Below, one piece after another: positions 1,398-7,585 of a stretch of DNA of 20,309 nt. Source of the stretch: a virus; IMG/VR virus record IMGVR_UViG_3300042691_046704, positions 1 to 20,309 of that record. One strand, 5' to 3'. The notes beneath the pieces are model-generated. The model made no database searches and was not told where the DNA came from. It was given only the letters and a program-made list of their open reading frames with translations. Within the stretch, counting starts at the first letter, position 1; the number at the start of each line of letters is the position of its first letter. The position numbers were made by a program, and so were the translations under genes.

Positions 1398-3866
1398 TCA
1401 GATATGTTTATTGGCGACAGCCAATGCTTTTGCCACAGTCGCATCGTCAAGGTTCAACAATGACGATGTGTCCTGACTTTGCTCGTTTTTTATTTTGTTG
1501 GCAAGGGCAATCAACGAAGCCGCATTTTTCATTGGGTCTTTCGCTGTGCGTCCGCCAGTCGCGCGATTAATCCGACCGCCTGAAGCCTGTCCTTCTTCTG
1601 GTGCGCCTTCGTTTACCTGACGAATGATCGGTTGCATTTTGAACATTGCACTCATGAGCGCAGCAAACGTTGGATCTTTGTCGACGAGCTGAGAAACTCG
1701 CTTGGCATTGTTTGGATCGAGCAACAATGGCGCAATTTCAGTCGCAATCCGGCGAGCTTGGGTTGCATCCAAAGCACCTTTTATTGCACCAAGCCCTGCT
1801 CCTGTTGCGAGCGTGCCGCCATAGTTTTGCAGCGAAGAGACAAACTGAGATGACATAAGTGCGCTTGTTATCGCATCATAAGCTGGAGCCAGCACGGAAA
1901 GCGCAGCTCCAAATCCTGCCCCTTGTCCCATCCTTGCGCCCATTCCAGTCGGAGGAACTCTTGGAATAGGAGGAGCCAACGCTCGGAAATTTTCCGAAAG
2001 AATTTTCCCACGGAAATCGTCAAACGCATCTTTGCCCAAAATTTGCCGAGCGGTTTGGGTAAAATTTGTTTCGCCGATAAAATTTGTTGCAATTTTTTTC
2101 AGCCCACTAGGTTGGCCGAGCTGTTCGATGATCCCGCCCATGTAGGAATGTCTCAAAAGAGACTTTTGTTCATCCGAAGCATTTGCAAAACTTCTGATCA
2201 AATCCGCATCGGTGTCTTTCGGCATATTTCCTGCGCGACGACCCAAATCGTATCCGGCATCGTGAGCAGTTTGATAGCCTAAATTTTCAGCGAATGTGTT
2301 TTTGGCAAGTTTATATTCAGGAACCGAATTTTCAAGGTGCGCCGTCAAATCTTTACGCGCAAAATCAATCGACTGTCCTGCGCCATAATCCGTCTTGTAT
2401 GCGTCCCGACCCATTTCATACATGCGTTTTTTAACAAGGTCATAAAAAGCAAGGTTACCGTTGGTCAAAGGAACGCCGCTCGACCCTGTCCCAGCAACCA
2501 ATCGCTGTTCCCCAGTGAAAGGGTCCTTAACGATTGTCGGTGGGACCGGAGACATTTCTGCGCTTGGAGGAATTACATCTTTGTCTTTGTAACCGAAACG
2601 ATTTTTTGTATCTTCAAGATTTTTCGCAACATCGTCGACTGCGTTTTGAAAAACTTTGCTTTCGGCAAGCTGAGGCGGAATAACAATTGCATTCGCATTT
2701 GGGTTCGTCATTGCCGCTCCGTAAAGCTCGTCGGCCTGAGCTTTCCATGCGGCAGCGTTCGAGGCTGCCAAATCCGAAACAGACTCTTTCCGACCGCTCA
2801 AACGTTGCGCTGTTTCAATCGCTCGTTTTCTGGCAGGACCAGCATATGAAGGAGTCGCTGCTTCATAAACATCAACAGCCTCTCTTGCAGAGGGGCTTGC
2901 TCCTGCTGCCTCCCCAAGCAAACGACGAGTCGAAACTCCTCCGATATCAACTCCAGCGATTGGTGTCCCCAACCGCATTGCTTCTTCAACTTCTTCAGAA
3001 GTCATCGCCGTTTTTGCATCGGCGCGATTTGCGGCAGCTTCTGGATCAGCCTCTCGCCTTGCACGATCTTTTGCGACGGCGGAAGCAACTTCTTCTTCTG
3101 CTTTCATTCCTGGAGCAAGAATATTCCCAACTTTTGGTCCGGCATACATTCCGCCAATTTCAAATGCTGGTTGAATATAATCTTTGTATTGACCAAGCAT
3201 CGAATCTGGTTCGACATTTTCTGCTATTTCTTGACCAAGGAAGCTCGATCCGCCAACTCCGATCGCTCTGCCAATATTTTTCAACACCCCTCCGCCGCCA
3301 ATTAAACTTGCCCCGACTTCCGCAGGGCGATTAACTTTTTGACCCAACTCAGTTTGCGGTTTATATTCAGTGAATGGAGCAATTTTCCCCAGATAACCTT
3401 TCAATGTTTCGGAAGTCGGAAACATAGAACTGATCCCGTAAGAAGGAGGCAATTTTTCTTTCGCAGAAGCCAGACGTTCATCCGCTTCTTGACCCATTCT
3501 CGCACGACCAATGTCAACTTCCCTGCCATCAGTTTGGCCCGTCGAGCCGTATTGATTTTGTTTCATTTTATCGATCATCATTTTATTATATTGGTCTTTC
3601 ATTAAACCAATATCTCCTGCCAGTCCAGGAGTCGATGTCAATGCGCCTTGAGCCCCACGAGCCGCGATTGTTTTCCCAACATCTTTCATTATGTCTTCGG
3701 TCGAAGGCTCGGCCATGGGTGGGCCTTGAAATTCTTTCCCTGTGTTGTAGGTTTCTCCGTACGGAATTGTAAAACCTTTTGTTTTATCCAAAAGCTCGCT
3801 TGCATTTGCTGCAGTCGCAAGACCTTTTGGCTCAACAGGCTTTGGAAGAAAAAATTCACCAGCCAT
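1398..3866 (-). CDS. Putative internal virion / ejection protein (822 residues)
   Basis: The chosen start is ATG 3866, seven bases after GAGGAG. An in-frame ATG at 3881 lies within the end of the upstream gene and lacks a ribosome site. The protein is rich in Ala, Gly and charged residues, and is mostly helical. Gly/Ala-rich, mildly hydrophobic stretches lie near 178-205 (GASLIGGGGVLKNIGRAIGV) and 640-700 (GAGFGAALSVLAPAYDAI and following), a pattern compatible with membrane interaction. Two GGR motifs at about 763-773 precede a C-terminal helix pair ending LLNLDDATVAKALAVANKHI. I recall that ending from large virion or transglycosylase-like proteins of phages of Alphaproteobacteria. By size, composition and position after the transglycosylase gene it resembles the podoviral ejection proteins (the T7 gp15/gp16 class) functionally. 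No enzymatic motif was found. Confidence 0.75.
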   Translation of the reverse strand: MAGEFFLPKPVEPKGLATAANASELLDKTKGFTIPYGETYNTGKEFQGPPMAEPSTEDIMKDVGKTIAARGAQGALTSTPGLAGDIGLMKDQYNKMMIDKMKQNQYGSTGQTDGREVDIGRARMGQEADERLASAKEKLPPSYGISSMFPTSETLKGYLGKIAPFTEYKPQTELGQKVNRPAEVGASLIGGGGVLKNIGRAIGVGGSSFLGQEIAENVEPDSMLGQYKDYIQPAFEIGGMYAGPKVGNILAPGMKAEEEVASAVAKDRARREADPEAAANRADAKTAMTSEEVEEAMRLGTPIAGVDIGGVSTRRLLGEAAGASPSAREAVDVYEAATPSYAGPARKRAIETAQRLSGRKESVSDLAASNAAAWKAQADELYGAAMTNPNANAIVIPPQLAESKVFQNAVDDVAKNLEDTKNRFGYKDKDVIPPSAEMSPVPPTIVKDPFTGEQRLVAGTGSSGVPLTNGNLAFYDLVKKRMYEMGRDAYKTDYGAGQSIDFARKDLTAHLENSVPEYKLAKNTFAENLGYQTAHDAGYDLGRRAGNMPKDTDADLIRSFANASDEQKSLLRHSYMGGIIEQLGQPSGLKKIATNFIGETNFTQTARQILGKDAFDDFRGKILSENFRALAPPIPRVPPTGMGARMGQGAGFGAALSVLAPAYDAITSALMSSQFVSSLQNYGGTLATGAGLGAIKGALDATQARRIATEIAPLLLDPNNAKRVSQLVDKDPTFAALMSAMFKMQPIIRQVNEGAPEEGQASGGRINRATGGRTAKDPMKNAASLIALANKIKNEQSQDTSSLLNLDDATVAKALAVANKHI

Positions 3867-3879: not shown

Positions 3880-6800
3880 AATATTGTTCAAGCATCGGGA
3901 AATAACGGACAACATTTTTCCCAAATGCGCCTGCGAGTTGATCTCTGAATTTAATTCGAGATTCAGGAGTCGGGAAAAATTTTGGATCGTTTCCGTGTTT
4001 ATATATGAACCGCATCCAAGTCATTGGCTGTCCTGTTTCATCCAACATCTGTGTGCCATTGTCATGCGAAGGCTGTGCCATAAACAGTTTTTTCAACGCT
4101 TGTTGGTCCTGAGCATAAATGCCGCCGTATTTTCCATTGAACCATTTTTTAAAATCTTTCCCTGAATAGGCTTCAAGATTTTGCGCAGCAAAATTTGGGG
4201 CAATTCTAGCGACTTCTTTTTGCCATTCCGAGGCAGCATCTCGCATATCCCTATTCATCATCATATTGGTGAGAACTTTGGAAATGTTTGTCCCTGCGCC
4301 ATCTCTTGTGGTGTTTTCATTCGGGAACATTCCTTCGAATTGTTGGAGTGCGCCAAGAGCCGTTTGGTTGTTAGTTTTTGTAGCTTCTGCGACCAACATT
4401 CCAAACGCTTTTTTGATTGCTTCTTCATTCCCAAGAACTGCTGGATCAAATGGAGTTTTCAAACCAACTCGGCCAGCGATGTCTTGAATTGCGCTGGCGG
4501 CGGCTTTAAACCCAGGAGCAAGAGATCCTGGAGCATACAAACCTTTTTCCGGACGGACGGAAAGTTCTCCAGCAAAATCGAGGATGCTTGGAATAGAAGT
4601 TGCAGCAGCTGCTCCGGATGCGTTCACGTCATCGAACATCTGTTTCGAAACGATTTCATTCGCCTCTTTTATGTTTAATGCGCCGCCACTGAGGTCACGC
4701 CTTGCGGCCTGTTCGATCAATTTTTTATCATTGTCATCGAGCGCAATTGTTGGACTTTCGGAAGGTGCGACTGTTGGAGTTTCTGTCGGAGGTTCTGCCC
4801 CCGCCACACCTGCTTTTTTCGAAACCTCCTCCGTCGGAGCACCTTCCGTTGAAGCACCATCCGTCGGAGTTTCTGCTCCGCCCAAACCTGTTGTTCCTAA
4901 ACTCGGGCCTCCAAGTCCATCGCCTCTTCCTGGACCAACGACACCTTCTGGTTTGTCGGTCGGCAATTGAACTGTAGAAGTTGCTCTTCCGCGAGCGTCG
5001 ACTTTTAATGTTCCGTTATTGATAGCTTCACGAGCTTTTCCTTCTGGCAAGTATCCATAAGTTCCATCAGGATTAATCGCAATAATAAACGTTTCCCTGT
5101 TCGCTGTGACCACCATCGCATTTCTAACGATGTTTTGATATTGCGCTTCGGTGGAGGCTTCTTGTCCTTCGTTCAGGGCTTTTTGGCCTTCAGTCTCTGC
5201 GAGCTTGCCTGCAATCTCAGGCTGCTGTTGGTTCAGCTGAGTGTAAGCCGCTGTTCCGCCAACCAATCCTTCGCCGAGGGCTGGCAAGAAAAATGGGCTT
5301 CTCGAAGACAACATTGAACCAAGTCCAGCCAAAGCCGGAACCCAAAGGTTTTCGGACGTTGGGAAATCGTCTCCAAGTAATCCTTTTGCTGCTTTTCCAA
5401 TCGGTCCGACCATCTGCGACTCATCGGTGTAGGCTCCCGATTTTGTCGTGTAATCATGGGGACGCTTCAACACACCTTGTGGCTGCCCGAGGCCTTTTTC
5501 TTGTTCCTTCCCAGGATAAGTGAATGCAGCATCCGTTGATTTTTCAGCAGGAAGATTTTCTTCGCCCATAAGTTTCCGAGCAACTGTCCAAGGTTTCCAG
5601 CCATTTTTAGCAGCGTAATCGTTCGACCAATCAATCGAAGCGCGAACAACGTCTGGGTTTTTTCGAACTTCTGGGTCTCTCAAATCAAAACCTGTTTGCT
5701 TGGTAAACTCATCTCCAAGCCCAGGATTTGAAAATTGTTTAGATGTATCTCCGTAATGCAATTGCGCAATACCAAAAGAAGATTTGTCATCGCCTTCCGC
5801 CAACGGATTAAAACCACTTTCGCCCTGATAAACTTTTGCCGCAAATTGTGGGTCTTTGTGACCTGCGCGTTTGGCAGACTCGATCGCGTAGTTTTTCCAA
5901 TATTCAGGACTCGATTCATCAACCGCGCCATCTGTCGCATAACCCGCACGACCGCCGTTCTTCATGAACCCAGAAGCGAGCTTCGCCATATCCATGATGG
6001 CTTTCATTGTCGGGTCTTGCATTGCTCCAGGAAGATGCTTTTGCTCAGGCATTTTGAATTTGGACGATTCATCCGGAATGTCGAGCTTTTTCGGATCCTC
6101 ATCCATGTCGTAAGGCATCCCTCCCGAAGCATACCCAACGAGTCCGCCACGAGCATTTGGCCGCGAAGCGCCATCCGTGGATTCGGTGTCTGGATCTTTC
6201 ATTTTCTCCGAAATAAAATCGAGCATTTTTCTGCCGAGGCCGCTCTCGCCAGTTTTCTCGTTTGTCGAGAACATTTTCGCAATGGTTTCGCCAGTGTTCG
6301 CCGCATTCATCGCTTGCGACATTCCGCTTTCCAATGGCGCAGGAGGAGGGGAGGAGACCATGAGCCTTCCGACAGGCAGGTTTGCTTCCGGAACACGACC
6401 GTGCTTCCCCATGCCTCCGGAAAGCCCTCTGGCAGTCGGAACATGGCTGCGTTCTCCGCCGTCGAAGAACCCTTGCTGACGAGCGATGATGTTTTGAATG
6501 GAGTATGGGTCGTAAGGATCGTAAGCTCCGCCACCTGCGGCGAACCCTTCGCCCATGCTCTGCAGCCCGACCGCTCCGCCCTCGGAAGCCATGCCGCCAT
6601 CCTCGAAGTGCCCACGCTTGGCAGCGTGTTTTGTTGCGGCATCGTAGTCAACAGTTTTGTATCCGCCCGACAAACCGACAGCTTCGGGGTGATGCTTCTC
6701 GACGTTCTGAGCCGAGAGGCCGATTTGCTTCGGGCCGTCCTCGCCTTTGTAACGGAACTTGATGATGTCCTGACCGTCGAACGTTTTGCCGATCTTTTCA

Positions 6801-7585
6801 ATGTCATCCTTGAGCCGCTCATCCGAGAAAAACGGCATTGGCTGAGTCGTGGTTGTGCTCGAGCCGGACAACGCGCCTGTGCCCATTGCGATGTTCGCAA
6901 GGAACTGAGCGACTTGATATGGGTATGCCTGTTCCTGCAGGAACTGGTTGTATAGAGCGGTCTTTCCAGCCTGTTCAGTTTGCTGGCCGAGAGTTCCTGC
7001 GCCGATCTGCGCCTGAGCTCCCTGCAGCCCCGCCTGTTGGGCAGCGAGGGCCGTCTGGCCACGTTGGCCGAGGCCTGTCATATAATTCTGCGCAGCGTTC
7101 TGGAACCCTTGCGATTGCATGCCGCCGATCGTCTGACCGAGAGCAAGGTTCTGTTGGTTCATGAGGTTGCCCAAACCAATGTTCGCTCGGTCGCCACCGA
7201 ACGCACCTTGGCCAATGGCCGAACCCTTCATTTGCGCTTGCTGTTGACCAGCAACATTTTGCATTTGAGCAGTGGTCGCGCCAACAGCACTTTGAAGGTA
7301 GGGATTCATGTAGCCCTGAACGCCCTGAGAAAAGCCCTCGGGAGTGTAGCCTTGCTGAACTTGGTTCAAGATAGGTTGCGCCGCATTGGCGTACTGGTTC
7401 ATCCCAGCCTGACCTGCCTTTTGCTGTTCATTCAACTGCGCAACAAAAGCATCCGGCGTTGTGCCGTATTGCTGAAAAGGTTTCGCGGCAACTTCTTCCG
7501 CACGAGTGTTCACGGCATTGTAACGCGCCATGACCTCGGGAGGGATCTTGGTCGTTGAACTCGTGGTTCCGGTTTTCCCGCCCAT
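3878..7585 (-). CDS. Large internal virion protein with S74 chaperone-like and lytic transglycosylase (SLT) domains
   Basis: The start is ATG 7585, one base after the upstream stop, with GGAG seven bases ahead; the product has 1235 residues. Residues about 30-250 are rich in Gln, Ala and Gly. Residues 254-320 match the S74 intramolecular-chaperone signature: SDERLKDDIEKIG, then KFRYKGEDG, then QIGLSAQNVEKHHPEAVGL. A Gly-rich disordered stretch follows (about 327-560) with GGM/GGL/GGR motifs. Residues about 560-680 form an SLT-type muramidase fold: the putative catalytic Glu is 589 in GESGFNP, followed by SSFGIAQLHYG. A Thr/Pro/Glu-rich linker spans about 875-949, then a helical C-terminal domain. 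The probable role is local peptidoglycan opening during DNA entry. Having S74 internally rather than at the C-terminus is unusual. Base composition rises sharply toward the N-terminal third of the gene. Confidence 0.85.
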   Translation of the reverse strand: MGGKTGTTSSTTKIPPEVMARYNAVNTRAEEVAAKPFQQYGTTPDAFVAQLNEQQKAGQAGMNQYANAAQPILNQVQQGYTPEGFSQGVQGYMNPYLQSAVGATTAQMQNVAGQQQAQMKGSAIGQGAFGGDRANIGLGNLMNQQNLALGQTIGGMQSQGFQNAAQNYMTGLGQRGQTALAAQQAGLQGAQAQIGAGTLGQQTEQAGKTALYNQFLQEQAYPYQVAQFLANIAMGTGALSGSSTTTTQPMPFFSDERLKDDIEKIGKTFDGQDIIKFRYKGEDGPKQIGLSAQNVEKHHPEAVGLSGGYKTVDYDAATKHAAKRGHFEDGGMASEGGAVGLQSMGEGFAAGGGAYDPYDPYSIQNIIARQQGFFDGGERSHVPTARGLSGGMGKHGRVPEANLPVGRLMVSSPPPAPLESGMSQAMNAANTGETIAKMFSTNEKTGESGLGRKMLDFISEKMKDPDTESTDGASRPNARGGLVGYASGGMPYDMDEDPKKLDIPDESSKFKMPEQKHLPGAMQDPTMKAIMDMAKLASGFMKNGGRAGYATDGAVDESSPEYWKNYAIESAKRAGHKDPQFAAKVYQGESGFNPLAEGDDKSSFGIAQLHYGDTSKQFSNPGLGDEFTKQTGFDLRDPEVRKNPDVVRASIDWSNDYAAKNGWKPWTVARKLMGEENLPAEKSTDAAFTYPGKEQEKGLGQPQGVLKRPHDYTTKSGAYTDESQMVGPIGKAAKGLLGDDFPTSENLWVPALAGLGSMLSSRSPFFLPALGEGLVGGTAAYTQLNQQQPEIAGKLAETEGQKALNEGQEASTEAQYQNIVRNAMVVTANRETFIIAINPDGTYGYLPEGKAREAINNGTLKVDARGRATSTVQLPTDKPEGVVGPGRGDGLGGPSLGTTGLGGAETPTDGASTEGAPTEEVSKKAGVAGAEPPTETPTVAPSESPTIALDDNDKKLIEQAARRDLSGGALNIKEANEIVSKQMFDDVNASGAAAATSIPSILDFAGELSVRPEKGLYAPGSLAPGFKAAASAIQDIAGRVGLKTPFDPAVLGNEEAIKKAFGMLVAEATKTNNQTALGALQQFEGMFPNENTTRDGAGTNISKVLTNMMMNRDMRDAASEWQKEVARIAPNFAAQNLEAYSGKDFKKWFNGKYGGIYAQDQQALKKLFMAQPSHDNGTQMLDETGQPMTWMRFIYKHGNDPKFFPTPESRIKFRDQLAGAFGKNVVRYFPMLEQY

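Follow-up and report, generated by a model that had tools for sequence, protein, structure and literature searches.

The window analysed here is a 20,309-nucleotide stretch of viral DNA (IMG/VR record IMGVR_UViG_3300042691_046704, positions 1 to 20,309), in which a gene on the minus strand encodes P0001, a predicted 1235-residue virion protein carrying a Peptidase_S74 domain, also called ICA, in the middle of its chain. The features of this protein and its neighbours, given in window coordinates, were as follows.

3881-7585, minus strand: P0001, predicted ejection-type virion protein of 1235 residues, very likely a fusion, consisting of a gp7-like N-terminal part, S74 domain, linker, SLT domain and C-terminal part
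6827-7585, minus strand: residues 1-253, forming a helical N-terminal part rich in Gln and Ala, with matches to PHROG 6121 and PHROG 4287
6620-6826, minus strand: residues 254-322, the core of Peptidase_S74/ICA lacking the long helix that would follow at its C-terminal end, from Pfam, profile and model
6824-6826, minus strand: Ser254, predicted nucleophile, invariant in 202/202 domains; the cut is expected just N-terminal to it (Phe253/Ser254), by homology (PMC8326128, PMC3828593)
6809-6811, minus strand: Lys259, predicted general base of a Ser-Lys dyad, invariant in 202/202 domains
5921-6619, minus strand: Gly-rich linker (residues 323-555), towards the end of which some 18 relatives carry another S74 domain
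5564-5911, minus strand: SLT lytic transglycosylase domain (about residues 559-674), with Glu589 (codon 5819-5821) as likely catalytic residue
7587-8105, minus strand: GNAT acetyltransferase gene, just upstream of the P0001 gene and in the equivalent place in phiGT1, pCB2047-C and RHph_N2
1398-3866, minus strand: next gene downstream, encoding about 822 residues, at the place of a P22 gp16-like ejection protein in phiGT1 (by position only)

With regards to protein family, P0001 was matched by PHROG 6121 (virion structural protein, E 8.5e-22) and PHROG 4287 (DNA ejection protein, E 3.5e-4), with both matches covering the N-terminal part plus the S74 domain and stopping at the end of the latter. 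The gene order of the window (tail hub, acetyltransferase, P0001, gp16-like position) was that of phiGT1, pCB2047-C and RHph_N2, and P0001 is probably a podophage ejection-type protein that would enter the host together with the viral DNA. The full P0001 sequence gave no match in the PDB, and family profile searches found no family match for the approximately 822-residue product of the downstream gene, the C-terminus of which (LLxLxDxxxAxALxVANxxI) resembled the last part of the gene that comes next at locus L054. It was also seen that the linker of P0001 contains repeated aromatic-x-x-Gly-Gly boxes (HFEDGG, FAAGGG, FFDGG, YASGG, FMKNGG), similar ones being found in the corresponding region of many fused relatives.

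A first-pass annotation of the sequence had placed an S74 domain at 6620-6826, which indeed corresponds to residues 322-254 of P0001, and the analyses confirmed a genuine mid-chain domain of this kind, with Ser254 and Lys259 intact, in an ejection-type protein that also bears SLT. Pfam PF13884 matched residues 254-303 with 31.2 bits (E 2.7e-7), the curated cut-off being 22 bits, and the same family searched against the DNA gave 36.9 bits as the sole S74 match within the window. A profile of 21 relatives furthermore found the solved ICA domains 6f45, 7dc3 (MyRF) and 3gud (GA-1 neck appendage); with the Pfam cut-off passed and these structures retrieved, a chance match was ruled out. ThreeFoil, appearing in the top row of that profile search, was spurious, since its score was the sum of three weak repeats. 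In an AlphaFold model of residues 1-341 (mean pLDDT 53) the upstream region was helical and poorly predicted, and residues 251-320 were confidently modelled (pLDDT about 80-85) with the strand and helix order of an ICA core. VIA-align placed residues 249-326 on the MyRF ICA (7dc3) over 61 residues at 2.2 Å with a modest Z of 4.5, no other ICA structure being present among the VIA matches listed. Searched as a whole in Foldseek, the 341-residue model yielded only meaningless matches, none of them significant; as this search on its own was null, it is chiefly the sequence profiles that support the ICA fold.

The S74 domain is followed by 913 residues in P0001 and hence does not lie at the C-terminus of the chain. 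A domain-consensus search of annotated phages returned 26 records, and a search of genome contigs three relatives only. In ten of the annotated phage genomes (Bradyrhizobium ppBeUSDA76-2, EBPR podovirus 2, Sulfitobacter pCB2047-C and phiGT1, Sinorhizobium phiM5, Rhizobium RHph_N2, Pseudomonas PAE2, Ochrobactrum OH, Roseobacter CRP-3 and Microcystis Mwe-JY13) the arrangement was split, with S74 forming the last 65-80 residues, approximately, of a protein of 303-619 residues. These unfused proteins strongly matched PHROG 6121, 4287 or 598 ('DNA ejection') in addition to S74; for the Pseudomonas PAE2 protein it was the N-terminal part that matched PHROG 598, a family that we take to be linked to P22 gp7-type DNA ejection proteins. 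The next gene started within a few bases, often with an overlap of 1-4 bases, and in several phages was annotated as a peptidoglycan hydrolase, endolysin or internal virion protein. Several split genomes also had the acetyltransferase gene upstream, as in the window, and in phiM5 the S74 protein and the products of the following genes are annotated as detected in particles.

Across all fetched loci, S74 was C-terminal in 95 of 184 distinct ORFs, a few of these being ordinary fibres, and the following ORF could start no more than 30 bases past the end of the S74 gene in 65 of 90 cases. One internal S74 domain was found in 58 of the 184 ORFs and two domains with a long tail in 16, the remainder mostly being cut by contig ends. 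The fused arrangement of the window's clade was common to many relatives. When the domain sequences were placed in a tree, internal copies lay almost cleanly apart from C-terminal ones, with three to four changes between the two states; the tree is unrooted and poorly resolved (76 columns), and its weak forks bear out no more than this broad split. It is very likely, judging from these comparisons, that P0001 is a fusion of two adjacent podophage ejection-protein genes, and the mid-protein position of S74 would then follow from the first of these genes having ended in that domain. One old fusion would explain the arrangement in the window, with the split form taken as ancestral because of its wider spread. 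The mid-protein position is therefore read as an outcome of fusion between neighbouring genes and not as reuse of a fibre module: direct insertion is disfavoured by the unfused relatives, in which S74 ends the chain and the hydrolase gene follows at once.

In the enzyme part, the Pfam SLT family matched P0001 below threshold (E 0.0055), with three of seven relatives giving a match (best 1.7e-4), so that the proposed SLT muramidase domain did not pass by HMM. Its fold and catalytic residue nevertheless stood: the region was modelled with a pLDDT that exceeded 90 across much of it, Foldseek with the model ranked MltE and Slt best and lysozyme and MltF after them (the first six matches having probabilities of 0.96-0.98 at E-values of 0.03 to 0.17), and Glu589, the Glu of a GESG motif, was invariant in all seven relatives. 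The confident model, the MltE/Slt fold matches and this invariant Glu together argue that the SLT label is right. An ejection protein bearing an SLT domain is also known in T7 gp16 (PMC8954989). In a close relative (L010), with a nearly identical N-terminal part and protein ends shared with P0001, about residues 575-700 of the ORF held, by eye, a different lysozyme-like sequence replacing the SLT domain of the window (5564-5911). On the aligned sequences this is a swapped hydrolase cassette, and the P0001 protein reads as a chain of exchangeable cassettes.

The second S74 domain of the approximately 18 relatives was placed after the linker; 16 of these proteins had long tails and two were cut. 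The fused proteins with two S74 domains and both SDxxxK motifs intact were as follows.

L024, L027, L046, L050, L019, L022, L023, L100, L107, L112, L122, L123, L125, L127, L132, L213

By alignment, residues 525-545 or so of P0001 seem to correspond to the segment immediately preceding the second copy in these relatives, P0001 having no S74 domain at that place. BLAST of the inter-S74 segments against the N-terminal parts gave no match. Cleavage at both domains, if it occurs, would yield three proteins from such a chain.

We then asked how well the residues needed for autoproteolysis were kept. In MyRF and endoNF the corresponding Ser and Lys form the autoproteolytic dyad, mutation of either blocking cleavage (PMC3742440, PMC3828593, PMC8326128). 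The Ser, Asp and Lys of SDxxxK did not vary among the distinct domains compared (202 of 202), including second copies in one chain, where the locus-fetching DNA patterns with alignments included neither Ser nor Asp, Lys being part of one pattern and Gly+34/Ala+37 of another; the Ser-Asp pair first noticed in the window is thus conserved in the homologues. Gly+34 and Ala+37 were the sole other positions equally invariant. All four TCN codons as well as AGC were used for the Ser, and the free synonymous change among TCN codons at a constant residue implies purifying selection. A permissive search of all ORFs of the fetched loci (E up to 5, no filters) revealed no S74 copy without SDxxxK, with four weak matches falling short of the motif columns. 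The domain was present in 135 of 140 ORFs having the N-terminal domain of the fused clade, and the five ORFs without it comprised three fragments and two clean absences (L053 and L054, apparently one lineage), with the junction reading ...STTTQ directly followed by RELTGSARGGRIGKADGG. In the ORFs compared, S74 is either kept whole or absent; it is dispensable in one fused lineage, as L053 and L054 do without it. The invariant catalytic residues together with this kept-or-absent pattern favour self-cleavage.

The trimerising C-terminal coiled-coil helix, on the other hand, was missing in all ejection-type copies seen. In the P0001 model the helix after the core had about 10 residues (314-323) before the Gly-rich linker began; unfused proteins ended directly past the V-[DN]-Y strand, and fused ones ran into the Gly-rich linker. 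In MyRF, trimerisation is driven mainly by a C-terminal helix of four heptads, and cleavage requires the trimer (PMC8326128), so lack of the helix would mean either another route to oligomerisation, through the helical N-terminal part or the portal, or no cut at all. Contigs L045, L047 and L039 each encoded a helix-less S74 domain in the ejection protein along with a helix-bearing one in a separate fibre-type protein, where the ordinary fibre S74 keeps its helix (e.g. YDRIVAVLVEAVKELTKRVEALEAK); they are a natural internal comparison of the two forms.

Weighing the invariant dyad above the missing helix, we give self-cleavage by the S74 domain of P0001 slightly better than an even chance. The best surviving alternative, unlikely but to be taken seriously, is that the uncleaved domain serves as an oligomerisation or assembly module clustering ejection proteins at the portal, with the full-length fused protein being packaged and ejected. 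The absence of the helix that licenses cleavage in MyRF (PMC8326128) fits such a role, as does an upstream region predicted to be helical instead of a beta-helix in need of a chaperone, and the equal invariance of the non-dyad Gly+34 and Ala+37, together with that of the Asp, means that conservation need not reflect catalysis. A role of this kind gives Ser and Lys no evident structural task, however, and yet they are constant in 202 widely diverged copies, second copies included. It is improbable that the domain is instead a docking or packaging tag for a virion partner (portal, scaffold or gp16-like protein) with Ser-Asp-x-x-x-Lys in the binding face: S74 always adjoins the same ejection genes, occurs like a cassette once or twice per chain and was cleanly lost in one lineage, all of which would suit a tag, but this leaves unexplained why precisely the dyad with which a known autoprotease cuts itself never varies. 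A functionless leftover of gene fusion is hardly credible, as the loss in L053/L054, showing that the domain is not always needed, must be set against a motif fully conserved in all internal copies and encoded at Ser by all TCN codons, i.e. under purifying selection.

If self-cleavage does occur, its expected site differs from that first proposed. The bond Ser254-Asp255 had been named, with fragments of 254 and 981 residues, but published cuts precede the Ser, lying at P586/S587 in MyRF as determined by mass spectrometry (PMC8326128) and on the N-terminal side of S911 in endoNF (PMC3828593). Phe253-Ser254 is accordingly the expected bond, giving 253 and 982 residues.

The proposed course begins with an ancestral first gene that would have encoded a short helical DNA-ejection-type protein ending in a minimal S74 domain, and a second gene whose product included a peptidoglycan hydrolase, the fusion of which left S74 in mid-chain. 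The domain most likely retains its ancestral activity, such that chains would first associate, whereupon Lys259 would activate Ser254 for attack on the Phe253-Ser254 peptide bond. The products would be an N-terminal ejection protein of about 253 residues and an S74-hydrolase part of about 982, both presumably leaving the head as separate proteins in the manner of the unfused relatives. Extended to podophage ejection proteins at large, maturation by autoproteolysis would have a helix-less S74 domain trimming a tail of about 65 residues from unfused proteins, splitting the fused ones, as polyproteins, into ejection protein and hydrolase part and yielding three proteins where the domain is doubled, a wider proposition to which we assign somewhat less than an even chance. 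Cleavage, if true, would constitute a built-in maturation step for ejection proteins, of which a review of these proteins makes no mention, S74 itself likewise going unmentioned there (PMC8954989). It would also mean that an ICA works without the coiled coil proposed to license it, and thereby provide a direct test of the mechanism put forward for MyRF; if there is no cleavage, one would have to explain why a silent Ser-Lys dyad is invariant.

Compared with known systems, the S74/ICA (CIMCD) domains of endosialidase NF, the GA-1 neck appendage and the T5 L-shaped fibre have the core sequence and SDxxxK in common with P0001. They are located on fibres, however, with a long C-terminal helix and a beta-helical upstream part, whereas the P0001 domain lacks that helix, follows a helical part and sits on an ejection-type protein, internally in this clade. 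The position in mid-protein is not unprecedented, since MyRF/MrfA likewise carry an ICA inside the chain, which it divides in two (PMC3742440, PMC3828593). As in MyRF/MrfA, the domain of P0001 is expected to part two functional regions, and 7dc3 was its closest structural match among those listed, although MyRF possesses a beta-helical stalk as well as the trimerising helix of four heptads (PMC8326128), and P0001 lacks both. The proteins most alike in S74 domain, motif, protein type and gene position were those of phiGT1 (gp17), pCB2047-C, EBPR podovirus 2 (gp27), phiM5 (gp27) and RHph_N2, which differ in having S74 at the C-terminus and the following protein separately encoded.

Neither S74 domains nor their self-cleavage are new, a mid-protein ICA is on record in MyRF, and annotations (phiGT1, RHph phages, NYA-2014a) already mention S74 on structural proteins of podophages. 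Within a partial coverage of the literature, no paper was found that deals with S74 as a feature of ejection proteins, with the lack of the helix, with fusion of the two genes or with doubled domains. On the sequences collected here, helix-less S74 domains are probably widespread in podophage ejection-type proteins; many of these carry the labels 'tail fibre' or 'tailspike', which seem to stem from this domain alone and are probably wrong. The S74 genes of phiM5 (gp27; L136 4834-6240), OP596614 and MT028492, labelled 'tailspike' or 'tail fiber domain-containing', are likely misannotated.
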